Shown here piece by piece: positions 37,700-43,046 of a stretch of DNA of 64,000 nucleotides (its first letter is position 1; each line of letters begins with the position of its first letter). The notes under the pieces are model-generated. The model saw only the letters and a list, made by a program, of their open reading frames with translations, did not search any database and had not been told where the DNA came from. Source of the stretch: Niabella agricola. GTDB lineage: Bacteria; Bacteroidota; Bacteroidia; Chitinophagales; Chitinophagaceae. Position numbers and translations under genes: made by a program. The stretch is taken from assembly GCF_021538615.1 (NCBI RefSeq), contig NZ_JAJHIZ010000003.1, forward strand, positions 2,170,001 through 2,234,000, read 5' to 3'.

Positions 37700-38911
37700 A
37701 TGAAAAGACGATTCCATGCCATTATTTCAGGCATCCTGTTTCTAGCTAGTGTGCAGGCTCAGGCTCAATCCGGAGATTCCCAGAACTGGTTCCGGCGTTC
37801 CGTTACCGTTGTTGGGGCTCAGCTAACCCGCGCTGCCGGAACCTATACTCCGGGACTGAATCCCCGCTCCGTAAATCCTAACGGCACTGTACGAACAGCC
37901 CCGTATACTGACTGGACCACCGGCTTTTTCCCCGGTTCGCTCTGGTATGGTTATGAACTAACCGGCAATAAAGAACTGGCCTTATCAGCAAGGAAATTTA
38001 CCCTGGCCCTGGACTCCATTCGTTATGTAACCAAAACGCACGACCTCGGATTCATGCTTTATTGCTCCTACGGAAATGCCTGGCGCATTACAAAGGACAA
38101 AGCCTATTTGCCGGTACTGGAAGAGGGAGCCCAACATCTTTATGATCGTTTTAGTCCCAAAACCGGCGTGATCCGTTCCTGGGATTTTGGCGAACACTGG
38201 AAGTTTCCGGTGATTATCGACAATATGATGAACCTGGAATATCTCTACTGGGCCGGCACACAATTTAAAAAATCCGCCTATAGCCAGGCGGCCAGCACCC
38301 ACGCGCTCACCACGATGAAGAACCATTTCCGCAAAGATTATAGTTCCTATCACGTAGTAGATTACGACCCGGTTACCGGTAAGGTGCGGAGCAAGGAAAC
38401 CCACCAGGGCCTTTCCGATGAATCCGCCTGGGCCCGGGGGCAGGCCTGGGGGCTGTACGGGTATATTATGTGTTATAATAACAGTGGCAATGCCCGGTTC
38501 CTGGAACAGGCGCAACATATTGCCCGGTTTATCATGACACACCCGCGGATGCCAAAAAACAAGATCCCGGTGTGGGATTTTGATGTGCACAATGCGCTGG
38601 ATCCGGATGGCCGCGCACCCCGCGATGCCTCCGCAGCTGCCGTTATTGCCTGCGGGTTGCTGGACCTGAGTACGAAGGTAAAGGACGGCAAAAAATATGC
38701 GGATTACGCAGAGGATATATTAAAGGCGCTATCTTCTCCCGATTTCCTGGCAAAGCCGGGCGACAATCATTTTTTTATCCTGAAGCACAGTGTAGGCGCC
38801 TTCCTGTTTAATTCGGAAATAGACACGCCTTTAAATTATGCCGATTATTACTACCTGGAGGCATTAAAAAAATATGCGGCACTGAAGAAGATCGCGCTGC
38901 CACTGCAGTAA
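37700..38911 (+). CDS. Unsaturated glucuronyl hydrolase, GH88
   Basis: A 403-residue secreted/periplasmic enzyme that hydrolyses the Delta4,5-unsaturated uronic acid left by polysaccharide lyases. A signal peptide ends near QAQ23. The (alpha/alpha)6 barrel has the family's two acidic active-site residues in KTHDLGFM (Asp115) and IIDNMMNLE (Asp174), and QGLSDESAWARGQAWGLYGY is a typical GH88 substrate-binding segment. It starts the plus-strand unit GH88, heparin-lyase-I-like, heparin lyase III, divergent from SusC. It should act after all lyases in the locus and yield 5-keto-4-deoxyuronate. Confidence 0.95.
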   Translation: MKRRFHAIISGILFLASVQAQAQSGDSQNWFRRSVTVVGAQLTRAAGTYTPGLNPRSVNPNGTVRTAPYTDWTTGFFPGSLWYGYELTGNKELALSARKFTLALDSIRYVTKTHDLGFMLYCSYGNAWRITKDKAYLPVLEEGAQHLYDRFSPKTGVIRSWDFGEHWKFPVIIDNMMNLEYLYWAGTQFKKSAYSQAASTHALTTMKNHFRKDYSSYHVVDYDPVTGKVRSKETHQGLSDESAWARGQAWGLYGYIMCYNNSGNARFLEQAQHIARFIMTHPRMPKNKIPVWDFDVHNALDPDGRAPRDASAAAVIACGLLDLSTKVKDGKKYADYAEDILKALSSPDFLAKPGDNHFFILKHSVGAFLFNSEIDTPLNYADYYYLEALKKYAALKKIALPLQ

Positions 38912-39014
38912 GTGCCCGGCAGGCAGTTCCGGCATTTCAATTTACTGAGGACGAATGCATGATTTAGTCACCGGCTTAACCGTTTACCTTTCTGTAGGCC
39001 CAAATACATTTATC

Positions 39015-40979
39015 ATGAACAAACGATTTGCAGCCCATATTACCCGTATCAGCATGATTACAGCTATGTTGTTTTTTGCAACAACGGGCTCCGTTTTTTC
39101 CCAGGTTGTGGGAAAAACGATTCTAAATATAGACTATGAAAACGGCACAGCCAATTCCGGAATCCCAGAGATTGAACCGACCAGCGCACCGGGCGCAGAC
39201 GCCGTATATATGGTAAGCCCGGGCGCTTCCGGTAATTATGCCACGGCGCATAAGGTGGTGTACGGCGACAGTGCCTATTATTCGGATGGAAACTGGAGAA
39301 GCGAAAGTGCCGCTCTTCAATATTTACCCGCCCGTTTTGCACCGGGAATGGAACGCCGTTATGAGTTCAGCGTATTATTAAAAGACTGGACACCCTGGAA
39401 TACCGGCGACCCGATCAACGAAACCAATTTTTTCCAGCTCAAAGTGTCCGGCGGCCAGGAAGTACCCCTGCAGGTACGTACACAGCGGAATGTGATCCGC
39501 CTCCGTTATAATGATGCGGCCAATGGCGTTTCCACAAAAGATATACTCAATGATCTTCGTCCTTATGTAAACCAGTGGATACGGTTTAGAATTGATGCGA
39601 AATGGGCACTGGATGCAACCGGTTACATCAGAACCTATATGAAATTGCCCGGCCAACCGGACTATATACTGGCAGATGAAAAAACAGGTTATATAACATT
39701 CCCGGGCGATGGCGGCAATATCGGGTATATTAAATGGGGTGTATACGTAGTTCCCCCGGATATCACCCGGATCATTTATCACGATGATATCCGCATTCTC
39801 GAACTCAGTCCCCCGCCGGCAGTGAGCCGCCGGGGTCTTCTCTGGGGAAACAGCATCCCGGATGCCAACCCGGGTTATCTGGACGGACCTTATACCAGGG
39901 CCGCCAATATTACAGACCCTGCGGCTTACAGCAATACCGGTAATACGATTTATATCGATCCCGGTATCCAATATACGCCATCGCAAAACATCGTCTATTT
40001 TAACAGCAGCTCGCCCGCTCCCGGAGCCGGTGACAATGTGGAAGGAAGCCCGTCTTCTGACTTTTCAAGAGCCACACTGACTGCCTCCGGAGCCACCGGC
40101 ACGCCTTTGACACCCGGGCCCGGTGGCCGGTACCTGGTCAACGGCTTTAATATAGGAACAACCGGCAGTCCCACTCCAATTGACCTTGGGGAATATTATG
40201 AGTTTAAACTCAGCCCCGTTGCAGGCTATACCATTCATTTTGATTCCATTGTTTTTTCCTGGCGGCGGGGCACCACAACAGCGCCCAACACGTTCGCGCT
40301 ACGATCCAGTGTGGACGGCTTCAGCTCCAATATTTCAGCGCCCGTTACCATCAACAATGCCGCCGGTGCAACCACTGTTACAAAATACGACCTTTCGGCG
40401 CTTACCGGTGTAACCCAGCCCATCATCTTAAGAATGTACTGGTATGGCTCCACCGCGGGCGGAAGCGGCAATAGTGTGGGACTCGAAGCCTTTCAGTTTT
40501 ACGGTGAAACCGTATCCAATATTGCGCTGCCAGCAGCTCTTGGTTCTATAGAAGCCGTCTTACAAGGCGAAGGGTTGGTGGTGAACTGGCAAAGCCTCCG
40601 TGAAACCCACAACAGCTATTTTGAAATACAGGCCTCAAAGGATGGACAGCATTTCACGACCATTAAAACCGTCCACTCAAAAAACGGCTACGCGTCCACT
40701 TCGCAAAGTTATAAAGCCTCTATTACAGCCAATGAAATGGCCGCTCTGACCGGGCTGCCGCTGTTTTTTGGATTTTTAGTTTTGGGAGCGCATAAACGTT
40801 CGCGCAGCAAGCAACTATTATTGTTGCTACTGGTTGCTGCCGCTATTGCATCCTGCAACAAGTATCATGATGCACTGTCTACCAGTCAGCAGGATCCATT
40901 GTTTGTGAGAATTAAACAGGTGGACCAGGATGGTAAAGCAACCTATTCAAAAGTAGTCACCGTAACAAAAACTAATTAA
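39015..40979 (+). CDS. Heparin-lyase-I-fold protein with internal membrane hairpin and lipobox
   Basis: A 654-residue protein. After a signal peptide (about 1-29) comes a jelly-roll domain of the polysaccharide lyase PF14099 type (about 35-270; GNWRSESAALQYLP, NETNFFQLK, YIKWGVYVV). A beta-sandwich follows (about 290-510), then a fibronectin/Por-tail-like module (LPAALGSIEAVLQGEGLVVN, FEIQASKDGQHF). That module is interrupted before its last strands by hydrophobic GLPLFFGFLVLGA, basic HKRSRSK, hydrophobic QLLLLLLVAAAIASC (Cys614) and a short linker. It then resumes as FVRIKQVDQDGKATYSKVV. The basic/hydrophobic/ASC stretch looks like an internal lipoprotein signal. The start at 39015 fits the signal peptide. 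It lies between GH88 and heparin lyase III, so a lyase role on heparin-like chains is likely but unproven. Confidence 0.75.
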   Translation: MNKRFAAHITRISMITAMLFFATTGSVFSQVVGKTILNIDYENGTANSGIPEIEPTSAPGADAVYMVSPGASGNYATAHKVVYGDSAYYSDGNWRSESAALQYLPARFAPGMERRYEFSVLLKDWTPWNTGDPINETNFFQLKVSGGQEVPLQVRTQRNVIRLRYNDAANGVSTKDILNDLRPYVNQWIRFRIDAKWALDATGYIRTYMKLPGQPDYILADEKTGYITFPGDGGNIGYIKWGVYVVPPDITRIIYHDDIRILELSPPPAVSRRGLLWGNSIPDANPGYLDGPYTRAANITDPAAYSNTGNTIYIDPGIQYTPSQNIVYFNSSSPAPGAGDNVEGSPSSDFSRATLTASGATGTPLTPGPGGRYLVNGFNIGTTGSPTPIDLGEYYEFKLSPVAGYTIHFDSIVFSWRRGTTTAPNTFALRSSVDGFSSNISAPVTINNAAGATTVTKYDLSALTGVTQPIILRMYWYGSTAGGSGNSVGLEAFQFYGETVSNIALPAALGSIEAVLQGEGLVVNWQSLRETHNSYFEIQASKDGQHFTTIKTVHSKNGYASTSQSYKASITANEMAALTGLPLFFGFLVLGAHKRSRSKQLLLLLLVAAAIASCNKYHDALSTSQQDPLFVRIKQVDQDGKATYSKVVTVTKTN

Positions 40980-41084: not shown

Positions 41085-43046
41085 ATGATCATAAAGAAAT
41101 TAGTACCGGTCCTTTTATTAACCACCATTGTTTTAACAAGCAGCGCACAACAGCCCGTCGGAAAATCCGGGTTCGACTTACTGAACCTGGACTATCCCGG
41201 GCTTGAAAAAGTAAAAGCCCAGGTACAGGCTCAGAATTACCCGGCCGCAGCCAACGCCTTGCTCAACTATTATAAAAAGAAAAGCAAGGATCCGGACTTT
41301 AGTGCTACAGAAGAAGCGATTGAGTTGAACCAGCCCATCGATAAAGCTACACGCGCCGCAGCAGACAGTGCGCTGGAGCACAAATTCAAGCCGCACAAGG
41401 GTTATGGATTTTTTGACTACGGCAAAGATATCAACTGGCAGTACTGGCCTGTGAAGGATAACGAAGTGCGGTGGCAGTTGCACCGGGTAAAATGGTGGCA
41501 ATCCATGGCGCTCGTATACCGGGCTACGAAGGACGAACGCTATGCAAAAGAATGGATGTACCAGTTTACAGACTGGGCAAAGAAAAACCCGTTCGGCTTA
41601 TCGAAAGATAACGACAAATACGCCTGGCGACCGCTGGAAATTTCGGACAGGATCTTAAACCTGGCGCCTTCCTTTAACATCTTTGTACATTCTTCCAATT
41701 TTACACCGGCATTCCTGATGGCGTTCTTAACCAATTACCACCAGCAAGCCGACTACCTGTCGAACAATTATGCCGATCGCGGCAACCACCGTCTTTTTGA
41801 GGCACAGCGCGTATTGTTTGCAGGCGTATCCTTTCCCGAATTTAAAAAAGCGGCTGCCTGGAGAGACGGTGGCGTCAGCATTCTCAACGACGAGATCAAA
41901 AAACAGGTATACCCGGACGGGGTGCAATGGGAACTATCACCCAACTATCATGTAGCGATGATCAATACCTTCCTGAGTGCGCTGCGCTCTGCACAAAAAG
42001 CCGGTATGGACCAGGTCTTTCCAACCAGCTATAAAGAAACCGTTGAAAAAATGATCCTGGCTACGATTAACTTTTCCTTCCCGGATTATACCTACCCCGT
42101 ATTCAGCGATGCAAAGCTGGTCGATAAATCGTCGATGCTGAAGTCTTATGCCAGCTGGGCCAAAGCATTTCCGCACAATGAAGTAATCCGGTATTACGCC
42201 ACCGACGGTAAAAAGGGTAAACAGCCCCCATTCCTTTCCCACGGCCTCACCACTTCCGGCTTTTATACCTTCCGGAATGGCTGGCACCATGCATCCACGG
42301 TAATGGTGCTGAAAGCCAGCCCTCCCGGAGCTTTCCACGCCCAGCCCGATAACGGCACTTTCGAGCTATGGATCAAGGGCCGCAACTTTACACCGGATGC
42401 CGGCTGTTATGTATATGCCGGCGATTCCACGATCATGAAACTCCGCGATTGGTACCGGCAAACCCGTGTACACAGCACCCTGACCTTGAATAATGAGAAT
42501 ATGGTTATTACCAGGGCGGCCCTGCAGCAATGGAAAACAGGCAAGGGCCTGAATATCCTTACTTATACCAATCCCAGTTATGAAAACCTGGATCACCAGC
42601 GGACGGTATTATTCATCGATCAGCAATATTTTCTCGTTATCGACCGGGCTATCGGGAAGGCAACCGGCATCATCGGCACCCACTTTCAGCTCAAGGAAAA
42701 CAGCAATCCTGTTTTTGACCGGCAGCGCCACGCCGTATACACTACTTATGCCGATGGTAACAACCTGCTGATCCAGAACCTGAACCAGGACGCCATTGCA
42801 TTAAAAGAGGAAGACGGTAAGGTTTCCTATTCCTATCGCCAGGAACTGGAACGACCGGCATTTGTATTTGAAAAATCAAAAACAGCCAATGCAGCGCAAA
42901 CCTTTATTACCTTACTTTATCCCTTTAACGGCAAAAAAGCACCGGTGATCACATTAAAAGAAAAGCCCGGAAACAACTACGAAACAGGAACCATTCGCCT
43001 AACGTTAACGGTTGATGGAAAGACTAGAGATATTACCGTGCAGTAA
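41085..43046 (+). CDS. hepC: Heparin-sulfate lyase (heparinase III), PL12
   Basis: A 653-residue secreted lyase for low-sulfated heparan sulfate (EC 4.2.2.8). A signal peptide (about 1-21), an (alpha/alpha) toroid (HKGYGFFDYGKDINWQYWPV, VRWQLHRVKWWQ) and a C-terminal beta-sandwich (FHAQPDNGTFELWIKGRNFT) match the Pedobacter heparinus enzyme throughout. The Pedobacter catalytic residues Asn240, Tyr294 and His424 correspond to Asn234, Tyr288 and His418, all at offset 6, which strongly supports activity. The ATG at 41085 replaces a GTG ten codons upstream. Third gene of the plus-strand unit; a hairpin with 7-bp arms at 43265-43282 may end the transcript. Confidence 0.96.
   Translation: MIIKKLVPVLLLTTIVLTSSAQQPVGKSGFDLLNLDYPGLEKVKAQVQAQNYPAAANALLNYYKKKSKDPDFSATEEAIELNQPIDKATRAAADSALEHKFKPHKGYGFFDYGKDINWQYWPVKDNEVRWQLHRVKWWQSMALVYRATKDERYAKEWMYQFTDWAKKNPFGLSKDNDKYAWRPLEISDRILNLAPSFNIFVHSSNFTPAFLMAFLTNYHQQADYLSNNYADRGNHRLFEAQRVLFAGVSFPEFKKAAAWRDGGVSILNDEIKKQVYPDGVQWELSPNYHVAMINTFLSALRSAQKAGMDQVFPTSYKETVEKMILATINFSFPDYTYPVFSDAKLVDKSSMLKSYASWAKAFPHNEVIRYYATDGKKGKQPPFLSHGLTTSGFYTFRNGWHHASTVMVLKASPPGAFHAQPDNGTFELWIKGRNFTPDAGCYVYAGDSTIMKLRDWYRQTRVHSTLTLNNENMVITRAALQQWKTGKGLNILTYTNPSYENLDHQRTVLFIDQQYFLVIDRAIGKATGIIGTHFQLKENSNPVFDRQRHAVYTTYADGNNLLIQNLNQDAIALKEEDGKVSYSYRQELERPAFVFEKSKTANAAQTFITLLYPFNGKKAPVITLKEKPGNNYETGTIRLTLTVDGKTRDITVQ

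Follow-up and report, generated by a model that had tools for sequence, protein, structure and literature searches.

A C-terminal tail of secreted Niabella proteins with an internal lipoprotein signal, and its predicted role in anchoring by fold complementation

The gene at positions 39015 to 40979 of a 64,000-nucleotide stretch of the Niabella agricola genome (RefSeq assembly GCF_021538615.1, contig NZ_JAJHIZ010000003.1, positions 2,170,001 to 2,234,000; the whole stretch is called the window here) encodes a secreted polysaccharide lyase, the last domain of which is interrupted. Strands A-E of a fibronectin type III (FN3)-like β-sandwich are split from the F-G hairpin by a transmembrane segment (TM1), a basic loop and a second hydrophobic segment (TM2), a lipoprotein-type signal that ends in a cysteine (ASC). 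An original prediction, made from the sequence alone, had taken this insert for an internal lipoprotein signal at which signal peptidase II could cut the chain, leaving the last strands as a lipid-anchored peptide that completes the upstream domain. What was noticed holds up and extends beyond a single gene, as the interrupted module is found on many other proteins of the genus. Judging from the sequences, signal peptidase II probably cuts at the cysteine, and the lipidated F-G peptide would complete the domain as well as anchor it.

The lyase sequence and coordinates given in the original prediction are correct by translation. The features of the gene are listed below; the term FN3-like and the letters of the strands were chosen by analogy.

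39015..40979, forward strand: coding sequence of the secreted polysaccharide lyase with the interrupted FN3-like C-terminal tail, 654 amino acids, ATG at 39015, translation as quoted in the original prediction
39015..39101, forward strand: N-terminal Sec-type signal peptide, MNKRF...TTGSVFS, without a cysteine, recognized by eye from the translation
39210..39794, forward strand: polysaccharide lyase domain PF14099, residues 66-260, Pfam match of 63 bits
40521..40730, forward strand: FN3-like half module, strands A-E, LPAALGSIEAVL...QSYKASITA, assigned by alignment and homology to uninterrupted modules
40740..40790, forward strand: TM1, AALTGLPLFFGFLVLGA, with the glycine at tail position 74 being the frequent TM1 glycine of the family (Y+14)
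40791..40811, forward strand: basic loop HKRSRSK, predicted to be cytoplasmic, from the K/R content of the best six-residue window
40812..40853, forward strand: TM2, the lipoprotein h- and c-region, QLLLLLLVAAAIAS, from the spacing to the cysteine and the residue at -1
40854..40856, forward strand: invariant cysteine, predicted point of lipidation and signal peptidase II cleavage, present in 158/158 tails
40857..40898, forward strand: linker NKYHDALSTSQQDP with K/R at +2, as in 158/158 tails
40899..40925, forward strand: strand F, LFVRIKQVD, from antiparallel covariation with strand C (tail positions 30-34 x 129-125)
40938..40970, forward strand: strand G, ATYSKVVTVTK, from the antiparallel F-G register i+j=264 and homology to the F-G part of uninterrupted modules

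Over the last ~150 residues, the order after the lyase domain is the FN3-like half, GLPLFFGFLVLGA, HKRSRSK, QLLLLLLVAAAIASC, the linker and FVRIKQVDQDGKATYSKVV. A second in-frame ATG is present upstream of the lyase start, at 38955. The Pfam fn3 model gave no match to the tail, and 8/20 tails weakly matched F5/8-type C models instead (E<=0.1). The tail region of the lyase is 70, 70 and 67 % identical to that of its relatives P0015-P0017. When compared with one presumed orthologue (L251), dN/dS was 0.15 for the FN3 half and 0.26 for both the TM1-loop-TM2 segment and the part following the cysteine; on this single comparison the insert is under purifying selection. A comparison with L217, which is not orthologue-like, was left unused.

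Twenty copies of the tail, including that of the lyase, are encoded in the same genome (E-values from 8.9e-94 to 1.9e-10), while a 21st match (E=0.149) was rejected as an ordinary lipoprotein. Of the other 19 tailed proteins, 17 were scanned at full or nearly full length. Among these are RCC1-like propellers, an NHL propeller, LamG, a GEVED-containing M43 peptidase, a glycine-rich domain, DUF285 and a weak β-helix, besides several proteins without Pfam matches. Most of the protein starts that were viewed, L010 in part and L016 not included, resemble, by eye, ordinary Sec signals; the signal of L019 contains a cysteine. The tail is a general C-terminal device on many different secreted proteins, and the view of the original prediction that it belongs to a glycan lyase in particular has to be given up.

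Among 17 Niabella genomes, 15 contained a total of 357 matches at E<=0.001. The best ~150 of these were viewed and were nearly all full length; the remainder may include partial ones. Numbers per genome ranged from 0 in G356 and G359 to 62 in G354. The family is thereby established by its sequences, and the 20 copies of the N. agricola genome together with the genus matches contradict the case, allowed for in the original prediction, of an insert without homologues. In 296 genomes of the phylum (<=13 candidates scored per genome), the matches listed outside the genus covered only positions 1-71 of 145, which is the A-E half. With the C-terminal half as a query against 244 genomes of the family (<=22 candidates per genome), those listed outside the genus mostly consisted of the F-G end alone. 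Outside Niabella, a complete fused tail was seen twice, in L280 (genus g35) and L281 (genus g28). Short open reading frames with only the tail end also occur within the genus: L122 (G360:C1:621542-625661), L123 (G360:C11), which lies downstream of a complete copy, and L120 and L121 (both G362:C1). These may be either broken copies or free lipopeptide genes.

Conservation of the insert was examined in 158 tails (157 distinct), comprising all 20 from N. agricola and those listed in the genus and phylum scans, so that high scorers are over-represented. The cysteine is present in all of them. The preceding residue is S in 84, G in 42, A in 27, T in 3 and N in 2 tails (G/A/S in 153/158), and the residue at +2 is K in 150 and R in 8; position -3 is varied (A 34, F 26, I 22, L 19, V 16 and others). 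The best six-residue window of the loop has 2-5 K/R (median 4) and is followed by 12-19 residues up to the cysteine; these figures, like the D/E percentages and the 100 permutations given below, come from an alignment with one duplicated row (L016, identical to its neighbour L015). Read as sequences, the tails have what defines a lipoprotein signal, namely a basic n-region, a hydrophobic h-region and [G/A/S]-C. The layout is that of a Bacteroidota lipoprotein signal located inside a protein, in support of what had originally been predicted, and from it we infer that the cysteine would be lipidated and the chain cut in front of it. In TM1, position Y+14 is a glycine in 94/158 tails; the highest glycine count at any site between -18 and -4 before the cysteine is 34.

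An internal translation start that would yield a separate lipoprotein in Niabella was considered and rejected: an ATG is present 7-26 codons before the cysteine in 94/158 tails, at no fixed place. SD-like 4-mers were counted before 16 of these internal ATGs. The gene for signal peptidase II, LspA, was found in 16/17 genus genomes. LspA of the genus carries an insertion of ~50 residues (L267, L269; unbroken reading frames of 232-303 residues), and G353, G356 and G359 encode an additional LspA that is short, at 173-176 residues. The long LspA was rejected as an enzyme dedicated to the tails, since the ~50-residue insertion is also present in G356, which has none.

In relatives outside the genus, strands A-E run without interruption into F-G (...YYRLKQVDxDG..YS..V) and from there to the end of the protein. 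This was the case in 28/28 loci, the best match of each of 28 genomes in the phylum scan. TIGR04183 was matched by 27 of these 28 proteins and PF18962 likewise by 27/28, in agreement with the original statement that ordinary Por-secretion-type proteins have the two halves joined directly; neither model matched the lyase of the window or its tail. In Niabella, TIGR04183 gave 15 matches in 12/17 genomes, 0-2 per genome, with 22-32 bits. As the uninterrupted module of the relatives is followed by TIGR04183 and the genus has at most two matches per genome, the interrupted module occupies the place that the sorting domain of the type IX secretion system (T9SS) has in these relatives. In the N. agricola genome, the single match falls at the end of a PorU2-like sortase encoded beside a PorV2-like protein; this PorV2-like and PorU2-like pair, L279 (G000:C2:734600-741400), matches NF052325 and NF052324 over the cut-off. 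A search with SprA_N was negative in all 17 genus genomes and equally so in the control genomes. Loss of the T9SS was not concluded, given the blank controls and the existence of the PorU2-PorV2 pair.

The two halves of the tail covary across the insert. Mean-field couplings were calculated from 156 tails (effective number 134). The pair A34-V125, with one residue on either side of the insert, ranks 3rd of 8794 pairs. The best of the 3240 five-residue ladders between the halves is the antiparallel one of positions 30-34 with 129-125 (z 2.45); the best ladders in the control blocks reached 1.57 (N-terminal half with TM segments, 2280 ladders) and 1.41 (TM segments with C-terminal part, 1025 ladders). 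Antiparallel pairing of strands C and F is expected of an FN3 fold, and the registers i+j=159 (C-F) and 264 (F-G) fit it. None of 100 permutations of the C-terminal part reached the best ladder, and one exceeded the best single pair. Pair 33-126 is E-R in 125/157 tails, and pair 34-125 trades bulk (A-I in 53, V-V in 30); of the 28 uninterrupted relatives 19 were parsed, and 17 of these have R-Y at the latter pair.

A version of the system made by two genes occurs in related bacteria. The reading frame of a secreted protein ends directly after strand E (e.g., ...YQQKVNLGF-stop), and downstream (3 to 100 bases in L111-L115) a lipoprotein of 51-64 residues (MK...LLSSCAK...) is encoded that contains F-G only. 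This arrangement was seen in 7/7 distinct loci, one per genome: L111 (=L292), L112 (=L293), L113, L114, L115, L291 and L294, where named from Flavihumibacter and, in one case, from a metagenome-assembled genome labelled Flavipsychrobacter. Each locus was found via its lipoprotein, and it is the neighbouring gene that is put to the test in this count. In all seven loci the upstream protein lacks a transmembrane segment after strand E. A genome scan with the split-pair lipoprotein gave four loci, two of them on contigs already known, and the protein database contained 14 such small F-G lipoproteins, some of which were the query's own. The F-G residues are nearly invariant in ten lipoproteins of the Flavihumibacter type. 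The two-gene form has the design expected of an F-G hairpin that complements the domain in trans while bound to a lipid, and together with the C-F covariation it argues for the original idea that the last strands complete the upstream domain.

Five of these pairs (L111-L115) come from a set of 16 weak-match loci that were read. Of the others in the set, L117 is fused, five belong to the genus (L120-L124), four are uninterrupted or unrelated (L116, L118, L125, L126) and one, L119, is permuted. At L119:2016-2336 (genome G004), an unclassified upstream reading frame ends after strand A, LPVKFKSFKATNIK, and the next gene, which overlaps its stop, encodes a lipoprotein with strands F-G-B-C-C'-E, possibly a circularly permuted split. 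The permuted pair was rejected as a family of its own, a full match being obtained only in its own genome among 18 of its genus.

The following route would account for the tail. The N-terminal Sec signal would bring the protein into the periplasm, TM1 would reverse the course of the chain and place the basic loop in the cytoplasm, and TM2 would serve as the internal lipoprotein signal. Lipoprotein maturation (Lgt, LspA) would lipidate the invariant cysteine, with signal peptidase II cutting in front of it. The resulting lipopeptide of ~40 residues, with strands F and G, would then fold onto A-E of the main chain to complete the FN3-like sandwich, so that what ties the secreted protein to the membrane is the lipid of a second peptide, derived from its own end and bound to it non-covalently. 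TM1 is probably removed by a protease, because the two-gene version has no TM1; this could be an intramembrane protease acting near the frequent TM1 glycine. The two-chain lipoprotein would finally be carried to the outer membrane by Lol and a surface-export route. The principle of anchoring, in which the lipoprotein machinery would cut a protein inside its final domain and the lipidated fragment would complete the fold, with the lipid non-covalently linked to the protein that is held, is considered fairly likely; in relatives it would be assembled from two genes, once in permuted form (L119). Removal of TM1 combined with surface display, which we infer from the sequences as well, is put forward tentatively, as quite possible, and the surface location is a guess because the acidic pair following the K is mostly incomplete.

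Several points weigh against this proposal. Unless TM1 is removed, it would retain the main chain in the inner membrane; the original prediction, whose idea of anchoring by the lipopeptide is otherwise supported, overlooked this. As to a protease for TM1, exosortase (PF09721) was over the cut-off in 0/17 genus genomes, with one weak match in G353, and was rejected as a candidate; this search did not extend to the rhomboid and CPBP families. The acids of the export signal are partly present, with D/E at 8 and 45 % at two positions next to the K/R. The tails studied came from the upper part of the match list. The metagenome tail P0005 has a serine instead of the cysteine with F-G otherwise intact, the sole exception seen. 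The two-gene form is narrow, as among 394 genomes of the family (<=16 candidates scored per genome) only the five from which the queries came matched fully. With regard to covariation, the couplings ignore shared ancestry and rest on few sequences, and the permutation test does not preserve relatedness; two parallel ladders without evident structural meaning score 2.18, and the coupling that ranks first overall, 45-62, lies within the N-terminal half and is not expected of FN3. That coupling may point to an Ig-like variant. P0005, with its 18 member sequences, is a natural candidate for an unanchored variant.

The alternative that survives best is that signal peptidase II cuts as proposed while TM1, loop and TM2 stay on the main chain, the module then being held in the inner membrane by the hairpin as well as the lipid. 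It would do without the TM1 protease, for which the exosortase search gave no match over the cut-off. Such two-point anchoring nevertheless appears unlikely: the two-gene version has no TM1, the residues after the cysteine partly resemble those of exported Bacteroidota lipoproteins, and the glycine that is frequent at one site of TM1 has no counterpart in TM2. Quite improbable is an uncut membrane hairpin, with TM1, loop and TM2 anchoring the protein in the inner membrane, F-G folding back on A-E and the cysteine remaining unlipidated. The two hydrophobic segments that flank a basic loop in 158 tails would suit it and F-G could fold onto A-E without any cleavage, but the invariant cysteine, the G/A/S at -1 and the K/R at +2 would be left unexplained, as would the fact that the split form is a free-standing lipoprotein. 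A cut tail of which the lipopeptide leaves, either to act alone or as a by-product of a maturation that releases the cargo, is very improbable. Small F-G lipoproteins do occur as genes of their own; against this, the F-G gene adjoins a protein with the matching A-E half in all 7 loci of which the neighbourhood was read, and the covariation across the insert fits a lasting contact. A frameshift, misassembly or decaying gene can practically be dismissed: broken copies such as G360:C8:20783, with an in-frame TAA, do occur, but the matches in 15 genomes, the invariant cysteine and the dN/dS of the insert (one comparison) contradict an artefact. Cleavage and completion of the fold by the lipidated F-G peptide is the reading preferred here.

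Two context genes of the lyase are as follows.

37700..38911, forward strand: glycoside hydrolase family 88-like protein (PF07470)
41085..43046, forward strand: heparinase II/III-like lyase (PF16889 and PF07940)

The curated entry closest to the tail is NF058595 (invert_tail, "lipo-invert putative C-terminal anchoring domain", 113 positions), which matched 24/110 tails at E<=0.01 and 9/20 at E<=0.1; no other family matched more than two tails. Judged from the alignments alone, its layout up to the cysteine seems to be hydrophobic-basic-hydrophobic-lipobox as well, followed by ~40 more residues. The bit scores, in contrast, were 13.2 to 17.5 (17 for the tail in the window) against a cut-off of 37, and the best E-value among the remaining tails was 7.3e-5, or an estimated ~23 bits. 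The alignments of four tails stop at profile position 73, one residue past the cysteine, and seven C-terminal parts (cysteine to end) gave no match when used alone. Weak matches elsewhere include ordinary N-terminal lipoprotein signals. No match over the cut-off was obtained in 60 genomes of the family or in 296 of the phylum. Membership was rejected, as no tail scanned reached 37; the recurrence of weak matches suggests that the curators saw an analogous or distantly related tail elsewhere. The name of the entry was not found in a paper in the open-access literature searched, nor was a description of cut-and-complement lipid anchoring found there by title and start of abstract.

To our knowledge, the known C-terminal sorting tags attach a lipid, a sugar or the wall covalently to the protein. 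The T9SS type A domain (TIGR04183/PF18962) resembles the tail in being a C-terminal sorting tail of secreted Bacteroidota proteins, located directly after the same FN3-like module in relatives; it differs in that the tail in the window matches neither model. The MYXO-CTERM/myxosortase and GlyGly-CTERM/rhombosortase systems (PMC11980579; PMC13393428) have a C-terminal membrane tag that is cut, leaving the protein surface-anchored, similar to what is proposed for the tail; in MYXO-CTERM an invariant cysteine is predicted to be lipidated (PMC11980579). These systems keep the anchor on the main chain, and their tag is a transmembrane segment plus Arg at the very end, whereas the lipobox of the Niabella tail separates two halves of one fold, with the lipid expected on the other chain. 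The surface lipoprotein export signal (LES) is C-X-K-(D/E)2 (PMC5080379); the basic-hydrophobic-[GAS]C order of the tail, with K at the LES position, is alike. LES lipoproteins differ in that the signal of the tail is internal, after a transmembrane segment, its mature lipoprotein would comprise only ~40 residues and its acidic pair is mostly incomplete. For P. gingivalis fimbriae, a strand beside a proteolytic cut in a β-sandwich is proposed to complete another fold (PMC4789730). Donor strand complementation next to a proteolytic cut would be common to both systems; fimbrial subunits of a polymer would exchange strands, while the donor hairpin of the tail would be of the same chain and carry the lipid anchor.

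If true, the mechanism would be new, although a curated entry of similar layout (NF058595) already exists. It would mean that fold complementation by a self-derived lipopeptide can serve as an anchor and that lipoprotein signals can function inside a protein, after a transmembrane turn. The spread in tail number from 0 to 62 inside one genus provides a handle for finding a partner protease via gene content. The module would also be a natural split system for protein display by means of a co-expressed lipoprotein of ~60 residues. For Niabella itself, the mechanism would help to explain how a genus in which no genome has more than two matches to the T9SS type A sorting domain holds dozens of large secreted proteins.

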